A DNA stretch of 64,000 nt from Prolixibacter bellariivorans ATCC BAA-1284. GTDB lineage: Bacteria; Bacteroidota; Bacteroidia; Bacteroidales; Prolixibacteraceae. The notes under the pieces are model-generated. The model was not told the DNA's origin. It did not search any database and worked only from the letters and a program-made list of their open reading frames with translations. Made by a program: the position numbers and the translations under genes. The DNA lies in the NCBI RefSeq assembly GCF_000621705.1, contig NZ_JHXO01000006.1, positions 124,001-188,000 on the forward strand, read 5' to 3'. Of this stretch, positions 47,705-52,949 are shown piece after piece; the first letter of the stretch is position 1, and every line of letters starts with the position of its first letter.

Positions 47705-47778
47705 GGCGAGGTAGCTCAGCTGGTTAGAGCGCATGATTCATAATCATGAGGTCGCCGGTTCAAGCCCGGCTCTCGCTA
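47705..47778 (+). tRNA. tRNA-Met (CAT), elongator type
   Basis: A 74-nt cloverleaf is complete. The acceptor stem is GGCGAGG/TCTCGCT (two G-U pairs), the D stem GCTC/GAGC, the anticodon stem CATGA/TCATG with loop TTCATAA, the T stem GCCGG/CCGGC, and the discriminator is A. The anticodon CAT is at 47739-47741. There is no GGG/CCC block in the anticodon stem and no C1-A72 mismatch, so it is not initiator tRNA. Whether it is elongator Met or a lysidine-modified Ile isoacceptor cannot be fully separated, but the overall form resembles Bacteroidota elongator Met. CCA is not encoded. Confidence 0.93.
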
Positions 47779-47780
47779 CT

Positions 47781-47819
47781 AAGGTCTGCAGGTAATTACT
47801 TGCAGACCTTTTTCTTTTT
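47781..47819 (+). terminator. terminator of the tRNA-Met unit
   Basis: A 13-bp stem (47781-47793 with 47798-47810, one G-T pair) with loop AATT is followed by TTTCTTTTT. It starts two bases after the tRNA and isolates it from cstA. Confidence 0.92.
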
Positions 47820-47916
47820 ATTGAAGATGGTTGGCGTGTTGAATAATAGCTTCATTGATTGGTTTTGGAACCATAATATTTTGCATTTTTCGCTGCTGAA
47901 ACCAACCATTAAACCA

Positions 47917-49371
47917 ATGATCACTTTTCTGTCTGCACTGGCCTTTCTTTTACTGGGGTATCATTTTTACGGCCGCTTTGTAGAGCGAATGGCGGGAGCA
48001 GATCCCGGAAGGAAAACGCCAGCCATAACAATGAACGATGGAGTGGATTATCTTCCTCTTCCATGGTGGAAGATTTTTCTGATTCAGTTTTTGAATATTG
48101 CCGGCCTCGGCCCCATTTTTGGTGCGGTTGCCGGGGCGATGTGGGGGCCCGTGGCTTTTCTTTGGATTGTGCTGGGCTCAGTGTTTGGCGGTGCCGTGCA
48201 CGATTATTTTTCCGGTATGCTATCCATCCGGCACAATGGATTGAGTATTTCTGAAATAACTGGTATTTACCTTGGGAATGGCATGAAGCAGTTCATGCGG
48301 GCTTTTACGGTTTTTCTGATGGTTATCGTCGGTGCGGTATTCATCATGGGGCCGGCCAAAATCCTGAGCGATATGACATCCGGATTTGGAGGTGTTGGCT
48401 TCTGGGTAACCATCGTTTTTATTTACTACCTGGCAGCTACTATGTTACCCATCGATAAGCTGATTGGCAAACTCTATCCCATTTTCGGATTTTCCTTACT
48501 CTTCATGGCTGTAGGATTGATGATTGCTATATTGGTGAAAGGGATCCCGATACCGGAACTTACGGTTGAATCATTCACAAATCGGCACCATGCCTCGGAA
48601 CAATTTCCGGTTTTCCCGATGTTATTCATCACCATCGCCTGCGGGGCGATTTCCGGCTTTCACGCAACGCAGTCTCCATTGATGGCACGCTGTATTACCA
48701 ATGAGAAATACGGACGCCGGGTGTTTTACGGAGCGATGATTTCGGAAGCTGTAGTAGCCATGATTTGGGCGGCTATTAGTATGAGTTTCTTTGGTGGCGT
48801 AGGCAAGCTGAATGACGTGATGATCGCGCAGCAGGGAAACGCAGCATTTGTCGTGAATGAGATTTCTAATTCGCTGCTGGGGAAAGTTGGCGGGTTACTT
48901 GCATTGCTGGGGGTTGTTGCTGCACCCATCACATCGGGTGATACCGCTTTTCGCAGTGCACGATTAATTGTTTCTGACTTTCTGAAATTCCCGCAAGGAC
49001 CAATCCGGAACCGATTGTTGGTGAGTATTCCAATTTTCGTCATTGGCTTTTTACTAACGCAAATCAATTTTGGCGTGATCTGGCGTTATTTTGCCTGGTC
49101 GAACCAAACACTGGCGACGATTGTCTTGTGGGCGGTAACCGTTTATCTGATGCAGGAAAACAAGTTGTATCAGGTTACACTGTTGCCGGCGCTTTTCATG
49201 ACGACGGTAATAACCACCTACCTCTTCTTTGCCCCGGAAGGATTTAGCATTACATGGGCAGCATCACTGACAGTTGGTTTGACCGCTTCGTTGTTGTTGT
49301 ATGTATTGTTTGACCGTTACCGGCGAAAATATCGTCGGATGGAAAAAAAATTGCAATACGAAATTGATTAG
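47917..49371 (+). CDS. cstA: CstA-family carbon starvation transporter
   Basis: The protein has 484 residues from ATG 47917; the same frame reads back through the tRNA terminator, so upstream starts are not credible. About 13 hydrophobic segments follow MITFLSALAFLLLGYHFYGRFVERM, with the CstA core GPIFGAVAGAMWGPVAFLWIVLGSVFGGAVHDYFSGMLSIRHNG and SGFHATQSPLMARC. CstA members take up pyruvate or peptides. At about 480 residues this is the short form, lacking the long C-terminal region of E. coli CstA. A PFL-like gene lies nearby (50031) across a minus-strand gene. Confidence 0.93.
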   Translation: MITFLSALAFLLLGYHFYGRFVERMAGADPGRKTPAITMNDGVDYLPLPWWKIFLIQFLNIAGLGPIFGAVAGAMWGPVAFLWIVLGSVFGGAVHDYFSGMLSIRHNGLSISEITGIYLGNGMKQFMRAFTVFLMVIVGAVFIMGPAKILSDMTSGFGGVGFWVTIVFIYYLAATMLPIDKLIGKLYPIFGFSLLFMAVGLMIAILVKGIPIPELTVESFTNRHHASEQFPVFPMLFITIACGAISGFHATQSPLMARCITNEKYGRRVFYGAMISEAVVAMIWAAISMSFFGGVGKLNDVMIAQQGNAAFVVNEISNSLLGKVGGLLALLGVVAAPITSGDTAFRSARLIVSDFLKFPQGPIRNRLLVSIPIFVIGFLLTQINFGVIWRYFAWSNQTLATIVLWAVTVYLMQENKLYQVTLLPALFMTTVITTYLFFAPEGFSITWAASLTVGLTASLLLYVLFDRYRRKYRRMEKKLQYEID

Positions 49372-49411: not shown

Positions 49412-49783
49412 TTATCTTCTCATGCCTCTTCGTTGCTGCATCATTTCCTGCTGATGCTTCTGGTATTTCTCGAATTGCTCCTTGGTGAAAAGTTGATTTA
49501 GTTCCTTATTCTTTTGGTCCCTTATCGACATCATTTCATCGCGCATAGCTTCGCGATCTGAGCTGCGATCGGCGAAAGCTTCCTTCATTTTTTCGGCATA
49601 TTTCAGATTGATCTGATACAACTTTTCCGAAGTGGCTTTATCAAGATTCAACGCTTCGGTTGTCTGCTTAGTCTGGCGTTTGGCAATATCTTCAGCAGAC
49701 ATATTGCCCCGACGAGGTTGTGCATTGGCCATGGCGATTCCCATGAACAAACTTAGCAGGATAAATAAGAGTCTTGTTTTCAT
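49412..49783 (-). CDS. Periplasmic Spy/DUF4890-like helical protein
   Basis: The 123-residue protein has a signal peptide (LFILLSLFMGIAMANAQ). The mature part is charged and helical: DIAKRQTKQTTEALNLDKATSEKLYQINLKYAEKMKEAF, then a repeat-like MSIRDQKNKELNQLFTKEQFEKYQKHQ, and a tail rich in Met/Gln/Arg. This is the layout of Spy/CpxP-type periplasmic chaperones and of DUF4890. Function is unproven. It starts about 250 bp from the divergent PFL-like gene. Confidence 0.75.
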   Translation of the reverse strand: MKTRLLFILLSLFMGIAMANAQPRRGNMSAEDIAKRQTKQTTEALNLDKATSEKLYQINLKYAEKMKEAFADRSSDREAMRDEMMSIRDQKNKELNQLFTKEQFEKYQKHQQEMMQQRRGMRR

Positions 49784-50030
49784 CTGAACGAAATTAAGTG
49801 ATTACATGCCTAAGATAGGAATGATAAAGAAAAGTTTAATTGAATTCTTTGACTAAAGATTAATTAACATATTTTAACGTGTTGTTTGGCAGTCGTTTTT
49901 AAAAATTGTGAAGCATCGCTTGTATTTTTAATTAAATTGGCAAGAAGTTGTTTTCAGCTGACAGATAAAGTATCGGGTTATAATTGGAAATGGGAAGCTA
50001 CATTTTTCAGGTAAACGAAACTAGTTTGAT

Positions 50031-52244
50031 ATGAAAAGTCTCCGTCGGAAGATTTGCATAATGGAAAAGTTTACCCGGGTGTACCAGGAGTTCCGGACAG
50101 CAGAACCTTCGGTTAGGGAGTTGCGTTGTCTGGAGGTATTGTTTCCGGCTATATTGCAGCCTGTTGGTAAAACCGATCGGTTTGTCGGACGAGTTGAACC
50201 GTTACCCATAGGTATTTCCATTTACGAAGGTTATTTGGGATATTTTTACGATGGAGCACGGATGAACGCCTTGCTGGGACATCCGCAGTTGAGTTTTAAA
50301 CTTGAATTACGCCTCAGAACACTGGAGGCTTTTTGGCGGGGCGAAAATTCGGTTGCTAAAATTAAGTCGGCACAACGCCAGGCAGAGGTAAAGTATACTC
50401 CCGATAAGATAAGGCGTTTCCAGAATCATGGTGTTATAGAACCATACTATCGCATAAACGGTGTCAATCCTGATTATTCAAAGTTATTGCAAAAAGGAAT
50501 CCCTGGACTTCGCGAGGAATTACAATCGGTTGATTTAGCGGAGGCAGATGATAAAAAGCGGGCAACCGTGACTTCCATGCTGGGGGCACTGGATATTCTT
50601 GTTCGGGTTATTAATCAATATGCTGTATACGCCCGCGATTTAAGCGATGAGTGTGTACATGAAGAAAGCAAGGCGGAATTGCTGCACATGGCAACGGCTT
50701 TGGAAACCATATCCGATTCAAAGCCAACCACATTCAGAGAAGCTGTTCAGTTGATTCATTTGTTTTCCTTGCTGTCGGGAACCGGGAATTATGGCCGTCT
50801 TGATGTTTGTCTTGGCGATTTTCTGGTACGCGATTTAGAAAACGGAGAACTGACAGAAGAGTTGGCACATCAACTGATGGAATCGTTTTGGCTACTGATC
50901 AATGCACGTCAATTAGGAGCTGAAGGACGAATGGTGATTGGTGGGAAAGGTCGTCCAAACGAAGAAGCAGCCGACAAGTTTGCCCAACTCGCGCTACAGA
51001 CGAGTGCCTCGGTAAAAGAGGCGTTACCACAAATCTGTCTTAGGTATTACGACGGACAGAATGAGACGCTTTTTACGCAGGCTGCGGGTTTATTGTCGGA
51101 AGGAAATATTAATCCGCTTCTATTTAACGATTCCAGCCTGTTGCCTTACATCGTTCAGAATTATGCAGTTTCGGAGGAAGAAGCTGAACAATATATTCCC
51201 AATGGTAATGGAGGCTTTGTGTTTTGGCACCGAAGTATCGGCGGACCCGCCGGTGCTATAAACCTGCTAAAAGTACTTGAGCTTTCGATAAATAGCGGAC
51301 GAGATTTTATTTCCGGGACTGAAGTGGGACCTGACTTTGGAAAATTCTCCGAATTTCATAACTTGGATGGCATATGGGATGCCTTTTCCCGGGAGGTAGA
51401 ATATTTCGTAGAAGCCCTGGCCATCCAGGAGGAAATATTGAACACCGTTATCAACCGGGAGGCATCCTTTATTTATGCTTCCATCCTGCATGACCAATGC
51501 ATTTCTGATGGACATTCCATTTTTGATGGTGAGGGTCCCCTGCTGGGAAGTGGAGTAGAAGTGGCCGGCGCGAAAAATGTTGGTGACAGTCTGGCAGCAA
51601 TTGATTCAATCGTTTTTCAGGATAAATTAATTTATCCGGTTAAGTTGAGTTACATTATTGGCGAAAATTATGAGGGCTTTGAAAGTGAACGGGAATTGCT
51701 GTCGAAGTCACTTTATCGGCGGGATATCAGGAATAAATCCGACGATTTTATCCGGAGGATAGATCAGCTATTGTCGAATACAGGTTCCGGGTACGCAAAA
51801 AAATCGGGCATGCATTACTTTGCCCATTGTCCGGCAAACGGAAAAATAAATATGGCTTTTGGCCGAAAAACAGCTGCCAGTGCCAATGGGCGAAAAGGGA
51901 TGGAGTTGCTGGATTGTTCGCTGAACCATCGTATCATTCTACAAAGTCACCCTGAAAAAATTACTTTCCCCGATACGGAAATTCTTCAACGAAATGGTAT
52001 GCATCTTTTTCAGGTGAGTAAAATGTTGGACGTGGGACAACAACTCACCATTCTTCAGGCATTAAGGCAGCTGGGAGTTGGGCAAATGGTGGTAAACGTG
52101 TTGGATCGAGACACATTGGAGGCCGCTCGTCGTGATCCGGAGAACTATCGCAATGTTATGGTACGTCTGGGGTCGGGAGCTGTCCGTTTTGTGGAACTTG
52201 ATGCCGATACGCAGGAACAAATTATCATCCAGCTCGATGATTGA
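50031..52244 (+). CDS. Catalytically degenerate pyruvate formate-lyase-like protein
   Basis: This 737-residue protein (or 727 from ATG 50061) is a full-length glycyl radical enzyme fold. Family landmarks are FREAVQLIHLFSLL, GRLDVCLGDFL, LFNDSSLLPYIVQ, INLLKVLELSINSG, and LHDQCISDGHSIF...GDSLAAIDSIVFQDK. Yet both catalytic residues are missing. The thiyl Cys of the GCVE loop is Asn393 (NGNGGF), and the C-terminal radical Gly position is Ser715 (VRLGSGAVRF instead of RVSGYAVRF). No radical SAM activase is adjacent. It cannot use the canonical mechanism and may be a scaffold, a binding protein or an enzyme with new chemistry. Function unknown. Confidence 0.85.
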   Translation: MKSLRRKICIMEKFTRVYQEFRTAEPSVRELRCLEVLFPAILQPVGKTDRFVGRVEPLPIGISIYEGYLGYFYDGARMNALLGHPQLSFKLELRLRTLEAFWRGENSVAKIKSAQRQAEVKYTPDKIRRFQNHGVIEPYYRINGVNPDYSKLLQKGIPGLREELQSVDLAEADDKKRATVTSMLGALDILVRVINQYAVYARDLSDECVHEESKAELLHMATALETISDSKPTTFREAVQLIHLFSLLSGTGNYGRLDVCLGDFLVRDLENGELTEELAHQLMESFWLLINARQLGAEGRMVIGGKGRPNEEAADKFAQLALQTSASVKEALPQICLRYYDGQNETLFTQAAGLLSEGNINPLLFNDSSLLPYIVQNYAVSEEEAEQYIPNGNGGFVFWHRSIGGPAGAINLLKVLELSINSGRDFISGTEVGPDFGKFSEFHNLDGIWDAFSREVEYFVEALAIQEEILNTVINREASFIYASILHDQCISDGHSIFDGEGPLLGSGVEVAGAKNVGDSLAAIDSIVFQDKLIYPVKLSYIIGENYEGFESERELLSKSLYRRDIRNKSDDFIRRIDQLLSNTGSGYAKKSGMHYFAHCPANGKINMAFGRKTAASANGRKGMELLDCSLNHRIILQSHPEKITFPDTEILQRNGMHLFQVSKMLDVGQQLTILQALRQLGVGQMVVNVLDRDTLEAARRDPENYRNVMVRLGSGAVRFVELDADTQEQIIIQLDD

Positions 52245-52270: not shown

Positions 52271-52301
52271 TTTTCTTTTTCAGGCATGCTTCTTACCTTT
52301 G
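52271..52301 (+). promoter_or_regulatory. Bacteroidota promoter of recR
   Basis: TTTT (52271-52274), an exact 19-bp spacer and TACCTTTG (52294-52301), a perfect -7 box. The predicted start is near 52308, 15 nt before ATG 52323. Confidence 0.6.
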
Positions 52302-52322: not shown

Positions 52323-52949
52323 ATGACCCAAGATACTTTCCCATCTAAATTACTTGAAAATGCTGTAACGGAATTTGCCAAGCTTCCGGGCATTGGAAAA
52401 AAAACAGCACTACGGTTGGTCCTGCATCTGCTTAAGCAGGAAAAGGAGGAGGTGCATCGTTTCAGCAGTTCCATTACCCGCTTGCGCGATGAAATAAGGC
52501 ATTGTAAAATTTGCCGGAATATTTCGGACACTGAAGTTTGCAATATTTGCAGCAATAATTCCCGCGACCATGCAACCATTTGTGTCGTGGAGAACATACG
52601 TGATGTGATGTCCATCGAAAATACGCAGCAATATCACGGTGTCTTTCATGTGCTGGGTGGTATTATCTCTCCGATGGATGGAATCGGGCCTGCAGATCTG
52701 GAAGTTGATTCATTGATAAAGCGGGTCATCGAGGGCGATGTGAAGGAGATTATTCTCGCATTGAGCACCACGATGGAAGGAGATAGCACAAACTTCTATA
52801 TATTTAAGAAATTAAAAGATTCCGGAGTGAAGGTTTCCATGCTGGCGCGGGGGGTCTCCATTGGCGATGAACTGGAGTATATTGATGAAGTTACGTTGGG
52901 CCGTTCTTTGATTAATCGTCAGTTGTTTGAGCAGTCTCTCGGGCAATAA
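52323..52949 (+). CDS. recR: Recombination mediator RecR
   Basis: The 208-residue protein has the helix-hairpin-helix [20 protein letters not shown], the zinc finger [16 protein letters not shown], and a Toprim domain ([50 protein letters not shown]). With RecO and RecF it loads RecA at gaps. It acts in the cytoplasm at the nucleoid. Length is typical and it has its own promoter. It is followed after 61 bp by the GT2 fusion gene, with no terminator seen, so read-through is possible. Confidence 0.97.

Follow-up and report, generated by a model that had tools for sequence, protein, structure and literature searches.

A glycyl radical enzyme homologue kept in the genus Prolixibacter after loss of its catalytic residues: a possible pseudoenzyme

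Glycyl radical enzymes (GREs) are viewed as unable to do without radical chemistry and as confined to strictly anoxic conditions. GrcA, the autonomous glycyl radical cofactor, is a short protein with a radical Gly. The class III ribonucleotide reductase of Thermotoga maritima, a GRE-type protein of another branch (NrdD), reportedly has no radical Cys pre-positioned in its active site. One study is also said to deal with a glycyl radical in an inactive variant of PFL. In 2024 this picture was revised with respect to the radical residue. That is, in the aminoacyl radical enzymes (AAREs) Ala, Ser or Thr carries the radical at the Gly site, and the activase and the Cys motif stay in the picture (PMC11528403). 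The same paper states that the published AAREs are all encoded near an activase, that their Cys motif is generally conserved, the first ones noticed each having kept the Cys, and that the Ser codons of the published seryl radical enzymes are one step from Gly (PMC11528403). Among the papers listed in a literature search, which did not reach most subscription papers, none was seen to describe a naturally occurring pseudoenzyme of the GRE type; in passages of PMC4207490 and PMC10818641 the word "pseudoenzyme" appears only in the titles of references.

Here we describe a gene of Prolixibacter bellariivorans ATCC BAA-1284 lying in a stretch of 64,000 nucleotides, which is called the window below. 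The original prediction, made from the letters of the sequence, held that this gene encodes a full-length GRE fold without the catalytic Cys and the radical Gly, and that the product either is a pseudoenzyme that has been retained or catalyzes some different chemistry. It started from the premise that all known GREs need both residues, a premise that is outdated now that Ala, Ser or Thr is described as a carrier of the radical (PMC11528403). In order to judge the gene itself, we compared its product with other GREs and with its homologues in four Prolixibacter genomes, namely that of the window (G000) and three others (G001 to G003). P. denitrificans DSM 27267 and G002 have one and the same protein (L003 = L005), which was counted once, so that the comparison covers four species and not five.

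Family membership and catalytic sites

The open reading frame (ORF) occupies positions 50031 to 52244 of the plus strand. It encodes 737 amino acids and has no internal stop, as had been predicted, and the frame is also open in all four Prolixibacter genomes. In Pfam the product matched PFL-like with 247 bits (residues 110-588) and Gly_radical with 24.5 bits (residues 675-714), both above the curated cut-offs. No listed NCBIfam model was over its cut-off, and the full-length GRE models among them gave at most 186 bits against cut-offs of 678 to 1150. The best solved relative by sequence was the B12-independent glycerol dehydratase 1r8w (E 1e-46, residues 76-734), and with a profile of the subfamily described below as the query the same structural match (1r8w/1r9d) was obtained with an E value of 1e-116. 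Judged by this homology, which extends over the PFL-like and the radical domains, the product is a full-length protein of the PFL/glycerol-dehydratase type. Since an AlphaFold2 model made from two sequences only had a mean pLDDT of 33.4 and was unusable, the intact barrel is proposed from homology.

The translation could start at 50031 or at the ATG at 50061-50063 of the plus strand (Met11), in which case the protein would have 727 residues. The later start could be the true one because codons 1-10 are nearly invariant between the Prolixibacter species, with the same base at 28 of their 30 nucleotides, and the sequence directly before them is almost as constant. The matches of the active relatives begin at residues 5-13 of the ORF, and this is compatible with either start.

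Then the catalytic sites were assigned from alignments to 1r8w, to the best active relative and to a set of 31 bacterial GREs, of which 19 are active members of the subfamily and 12 served as outgroup. All three alignments matched Asn393 to the Cys of the GCxE loop, Gly395 to the Glu and Ser715 to the radical Gly. The codon of Asn393 is AAT (51207-51209, plus strand), and the residue is Asn in 4/4 Prolixibacter proteins and Cys in 19/19 active relatives and 12/12 other GREs. Gly395 (GGC, 51213-51215, plus strand) stands at the site of the CXE Glu and is likewise Gly in all four, the 19 active relatives and the 12 other GREs having Glu. Ser715 (TCG, 52173-52175, plus strand) is Ser in all four; Gly is found there in the 18 active relatives readable at this end and in the 12 other GREs. 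The glycine-radical loop RVxG[FWY] thus reads RLGSG in Prolixibacter. That is, the product has neither the catalytic Cys in the Cys loop nor the radical Gly by which a GRE is recognized, and it does not have the CXE Glu by which a GRE eliminase is recognized. The original prediction had named the losses at residues 393 and 715, at these same codons, and both were borne out; the loss of the Glu had escaped it. In the four species the codon for Ser715 is TCG or TCC and that for Asn393 is AAT, and these are at least two base changes away from any Gly and any Cys codon, respectively.

We also considered whether the catalytic residues are merely displaced, which the original prediction had given as the case that would refute it. 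Cys490 (51498-51500, plus strand) is Cys in all 19 active members and all 12 other GREs, each of which has its own catalytic Cys as well, and it was rejected as a displaced catalytic residue. Gly714 and Gly716 were rejected as shifted radical sites: the spacing from R712 to R719 is gap-free, so a shift to either of them would need two compensating insertions or deletions.

Radical machinery in Prolixibacter

Activases were sought with TIGR02494 (E <= 0.001). G000 gave 14 matches, all of them outside the window, in keeping with the earlier statement that no activase adjoins the gene; the cognate radical SAM activase, usually the neighbor of a GRE, is missing there. Matches over the cut-off were found elsewhere in the genome in G000, G001 and G002, and in G000 such a match stands beside an ordinary GRE. 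In G003 the best value with the activase profile was 44.8 bits against a cut-off of 174 bits, nothing was over the cut-off, and no glycyl-radical domain (Gly_radical) was found other than that of the ORF homologue. A search of the four Prolixibacter genomes for NrdD found none. G003 is a single contig with an estimated completeness of 97%, so a gene may still have been missed in it.

The Ser residue at the radical site brings the seryl radical enzymes to mind. If the product were one of them, a radical SAM protein encoded elsewhere would set the radical on Ser715. Like the ORF product, seryl radical enzymes have Ser where the radical Gly would stand, and according to PMC11528403 this Ser works there. 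However, the same paper gives them a nearby activase, a generally kept Cys motif and a Ser codon one step from a Gly codon, and the ORF has none of these (Asn for Cys, no activase match in the window, TCG/TCC as the Ser codon). Moreover, G003 has no activase over the cut-off, and the loop RVxG[FWY] has become RLGSG. Since the described AAREs stand near an activase and generally keep the Cys motif, the Ser exception does not rescue the ORF product. We consider a seryl radical enzyme highly improbable and rejected it on the grounds of Cys, activase and codon.

Repair by a spare part of the GrcA type is unlikely, the only Gly_radical match in G003 being the ORF homologue. The similarity of GrcA to the product is weak and confined to the C-terminal radical domain (at most 33.6 bits against cut-offs of 145-170). 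In addition, GrcA is short and has a radical Gly, whereas the ORF has the whole barrel region and Ser for Gly.

GREs are dimers, and ordinary GREs, one or two per genome, occur in three of the four Prolixibacter genomes. These two points would favor the idea that the product pairs, as an inactive subunit, with the ordinary GRE of the cell (789 aa, contig 9 of G000). Nevertheless, G003 keeps the gene at 92% identity although no other GRE was found in it, its only Gly_radical match being the ORF homologue, and the ORF product and the ordinary GRE of G000 share 25% identity. The chance that the protein serves as such a partner seems very slim to us.

The ordinary GRE of G000 (L002) carries CVE and RVAGY loops and adjoins an activase, which is followed by a 346-aa ORF that looks like a proline racemase by eye. 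This locus suggests a hydroxyproline-type pathway.

Relatives, selection and genomic setting

With a family profile we searched 140 genomes of the family at a listing threshold of 1e-60. We also searched 393 genomes of the order, 395 of the class and 395 of the phylum, drawn from larger groups and overlapping with each other, at E <= 1e-90, and among the matches listed at most two candidates per genome were scored. Within these limits, a degenerate GRE from another subfamily could have escaped notice. The family gave 12 matches of at least 562 bits (four from Prolixibacter and eight others), and the next match had 256 bits. The order added four relatives besides the genome of the window, the class no further ones, and the phylum seven further ones at E <= 1e-90. 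Two scans of viral contigs gave no relatives, and a scan of genome contigs gave one locus, L003.

The 19 nearest relatives found (for example L037, L040, L078 and L080) are 29-34% identical to the product over the whole protein and are homologous to it along the full length. Unlike the ORF product, they have the Cys (19/19), the Glu (19/19) and the radical Gly (18/18 readable at the C-terminus), and an activase directly adjoins the GRE gene in 18/19, the exception, L068, lying at a contig end. These three residues also separate the product from glycerol dehydratase (1r8w/1r9d), the best solved relative by sequence, which in the alignment has the catalytic Cys, the Glu and the radical Gly. In the alignment of Bacteroidota homologues that the original prediction had called for, Asn and Ser are fixed in 4/4 Prolixibacter, and the nearest others found keep Cys and Gly.

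The active relatives belong to a subfamily of Bacteroidota GREs whose loops read GCGE and RV/IGGF and which is accompanied by its activase (L036, L067, L069-L077, L093-L099); we know of no name for it. Several of its members stand among genes resembling those for GH130, GH92, sulfatases or transporters, an assignment made partly by eye. When five neighboring proteins of the relatives were run against Pfam, GH130 was found twice (L069 and L095) and GH92 once (L070), and neither was found in L073 and L097; further neighbors resembling GH130, GH92, sulfatase and transporter proteins were recognized by eye. The substrate of the active subfamily may be a sugar or a polyol. Because some active relatives lie in carbohydrate loci, the ancestral role was probably sugar breakdown.

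Three active GREs (L067, L068 and L076, of G109, G116 and G384) begin with the twin-arginine-like segments NRRQFMKH, NRREFMKH and SRRRFLKQ, each followed by a hydrophobic segment. Such starts, if correct, would point to a glycyl radical enzyme that is exported.

The four Prolixibacter proteins came out in the tree as one clade (100/100) inside or beside the active subfamily, and the joint group was separated from 12 other GREs with 100/100. The active members stood alone on one side of a branch in 26% of the bootstrap trees. The stem of the Prolixibacter clade, with 2.4 changes per column, was the longest inner branch within the subfamily, and the end branches within the clade measured 0.01-0.06. 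The program flagged two rows of the tree, namely the long outgroup branch L030 and the long row L044.

To express the strength of selection, we calculated dN/dS by the Nei-Gojobori method with our own script for the six species pairs. The values for the ORF ranged from 0.058 to 0.111; dS exceeded 1.2 in four pairs, and the two well-measured values are 0.111 for G000-G003 (dS 0.35) and 0.058 for G001-G002 (dS 0.26). Eleven neighboring genes gave 0-0.144, and the ORF falls within that range. The last 47 residues (691-737), the former radical end, are constrained as strongly as the rest. The gene is under strong purifying selection. Loss of the catalytic residues in a gene that purifying selection has kept, one mark of a pseudoenzyme of the GRE fold, was found; the other mark would be a non-catalytic function. 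The surmise that the intact frame has been kept by selection agrees with these dN/dS values of 0.06-0.11, with the frame being open in 4/4 genomes and with the genus-wide fixation of Asn, Gly and Ser at residues 393, 395 and 715.

The length of the stem, 2.4 changes per column, and the loss of many conserved residues might also be seen in a dying gene that is not yet broken. The dN/dS values across the six pairs contradict decay, and all four genomes are free of stops in this gene; we rejected a decaying pseudogene as hardly credible.

Two stretches of the ORF show almost no synonymous change across the four species, 51333-51395 (codons 435-455) and 51807-51878 (codons 593-616). In the former, the longest run of 17 conserved degenerate codons was reached in 2 of 5000 shuffles; in the latter, the synonymous-change count among the four species is 2/20. 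Such stretches could stem from gene conversion among the species or from a signal in the nucleotide sequence itself.

Upstream of the ORF lies a gene for a 123-aa protein on the minus strand (49412-49783), called Spy-like by eye and having no Pfam match, and downstream, at 52323-52949 of the plus strand, a gene that we take to be recR. The intergenic stretch between the Spy-like gene and the ORF (49784-50030, plus strand) contains blocks conserved in all four species and is likely to hold the ORF's own promoter and leader. In front of recR, the conserved TACCTTTG (52294-52301, plus strand) agrees with TAnnTTTG, the Bacteroidota -7 motif, and suggests that recR may have a promoter of its own. 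Since the upstream blocks (about 250 bases) are conserved in the four species and a conserved TAnnTTTG-like motif stands before recR, the gene is probably transcribed alone.

The gene lies between the Spy-like gene and recR in G000, G001 and G002. G003 retains the gene together with recR, and the upstream neighbors are missing from the 18 kb read there. The surroundings of recR (12-15 kb) in 8/8 other family genomes gave no match to the Prolixibacter GRE. One of these, G087, has a gene about 175 bases from recR for a homologue (36%) of the Spy-like protein, with no GRE between the two; this region looks like an empty site, and an intact subfamily member is encoded elsewhere in that genome. The ORF stands apart from the sugar loci of active relatives, and by eye no metabolic genes next to it point to a pathway.

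Upstream of the Spy-like gene, at 47746-49371, a carbon starvation transporter of the CstA type is encoded (Pfam CstA, 199 bits). It is also found near the gene in G001 and G002, and it is missing from the 18 kb read in G003.

The C-terminal part, the pocket and the possible role

In order to see where the Prolixibacter proteins depart from the active subfamily, we counted the positions that are invariant in 18 of the 19 active members, the truncated L066 being left out, and compared them with the four Prolixibacter proteins. In residues 1-560, of 60 such positions 47 were kept, 8 were lost and 5 were mixed; in residues 561-737, of 46 such positions 18 were kept, 26 were lost in all four proteins and 2 were mixed. 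The asymmetry gave p = 5e-6, for a split at 560 that was chosen after the changed positions had been seen. The alignment with the active members is poor at residues 594-690, around a gap of five residues, and when this segment was set aside the asymmetry weakened to p = 0.009. Seven control clades of active members showed no significant C-terminal excess of losses: L037 and L080 had slightly more C-terminal loss (p 0.58 and 0.75), and the lowest control value, 0.047 (L064/L065), was in the opposite direction. The earlier list of losses was right on Cys and Gly but left out this wider loss, 26 of 46 invariant positions in residues 561-737. The uneven loss, taken together with the present constraint, can be read as a radical-carrying part that was rewritten and then frozen.

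Then we mapped the pocket by alignment with HypD, using the residue roles given in PMC7077986. The result was mixed. Arg141, the equivalent of HypD Arg156, is kept, and so are Arg300 and Asn603, each of the three being invariant in 19/19 active relatives; His400, which is His in 16/19 of them, is kept as well. The position of HypD Thr645, a substrate-binding residue, is Asn in 19/19 active relatives and Gly in Prolixibacter. Cys600 (51828-51830, plus strand) is Cys in 4/4 Prolixibacter and Val in 19/19 active relatives, and by alignment only it lies four residues before the Thr645 position (beta-8). His599, which adjoins it, His633 and His658 are also specific to Prolixibacter and conserved there. 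Such a pocket would fit a ligand-binding pseudoenzyme and a new polar enzyme alike.

The latter would mean that the barrel was rebuilt around Asn393, His400, Cys600 and the nearby His residues and carries out a non-radical, polar reaction on a sugar or polyol. The strong constraint along the whole length, including the rebuilt part, speaks for such chemistry, as do Cys600 and the kept Arg141, Arg300, Asn603 and His400. On the other hand, Cys600 was placed by aligning distant sequences, with a structural model of pLDDT 33.4, the Asn of the active relatives at the Thr645 position has become Gly, and no metabolic neighbors hint at a pathway. We hold a new polar enzyme to be possible but rather doubtful, though it is the strongest of the rivals. 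Equally tentative is a wider form of this idea, in which the radical apparatus would have been removed on the one long branch, the C-terminal part rewritten and then frozen, and Asn393, His599, Cys600, His633 and His658 would form a new site for sensing or for catalysis without a radical; the protein would perhaps be an oxygen-stable descendant of a sugar-converting enzyme.

We lean somewhat toward a retained, catalytically dead glycyl radical enzyme that acts as a binding, scaffolding or regulatory protein without radical chemistry. We prefer such a pseudoenzyme to a new polar enzyme because the acid-base Glu is lost from the pocket and no pathway genes were seen nearby. The Prolixibacter-specific Cys600, His599, His633 and His658, which could make a new catalytic site, and the small number of known carriers, four species only, count against it. 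The two possibilities left by the original prediction, a retained pseudoenzyme or different chemistry, are both in line with the selection, with Asn, Gly and Ser in 4/4 and with the missing activase. The case is now stronger than it was then, with a third catalytic residue lost, fixation throughout the genus, strong selection, relatives that have activases, and G003, in which no such radical machinery was found.

The product belongs in or beside the Bacteroidota subfamily that has retained its GCGE and RV/IGGF loops and an activase nearby. The Prolixibacter proteins are without all three catalytic residues (Cys, Glu and radical Gly) and a large number of conserved C-terminal ones, no activase adjoins them, and strong purifying selection acts on the gene beside recR. 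We propose that the barrel would still fold and bind a protein partner or a small ligand, perhaps sugar- or polyol-like in view of the setting of the active relatives, and the protein would act in a binding, scaffolding or regulatory role.

The radical residues and the helper activase are gone and yet the gene has been kept, so the protein is probably useful in another way; that is, Prolixibacter probably keeps the gene for a non-radical role. If this is true, the barrel of the GREs can leave radical chemistry altogether, as a selected, genus-wide member would show, and with intact relatives at hand for comparison the protein would offer a clean case for studying what the GRE fold does without the radical.
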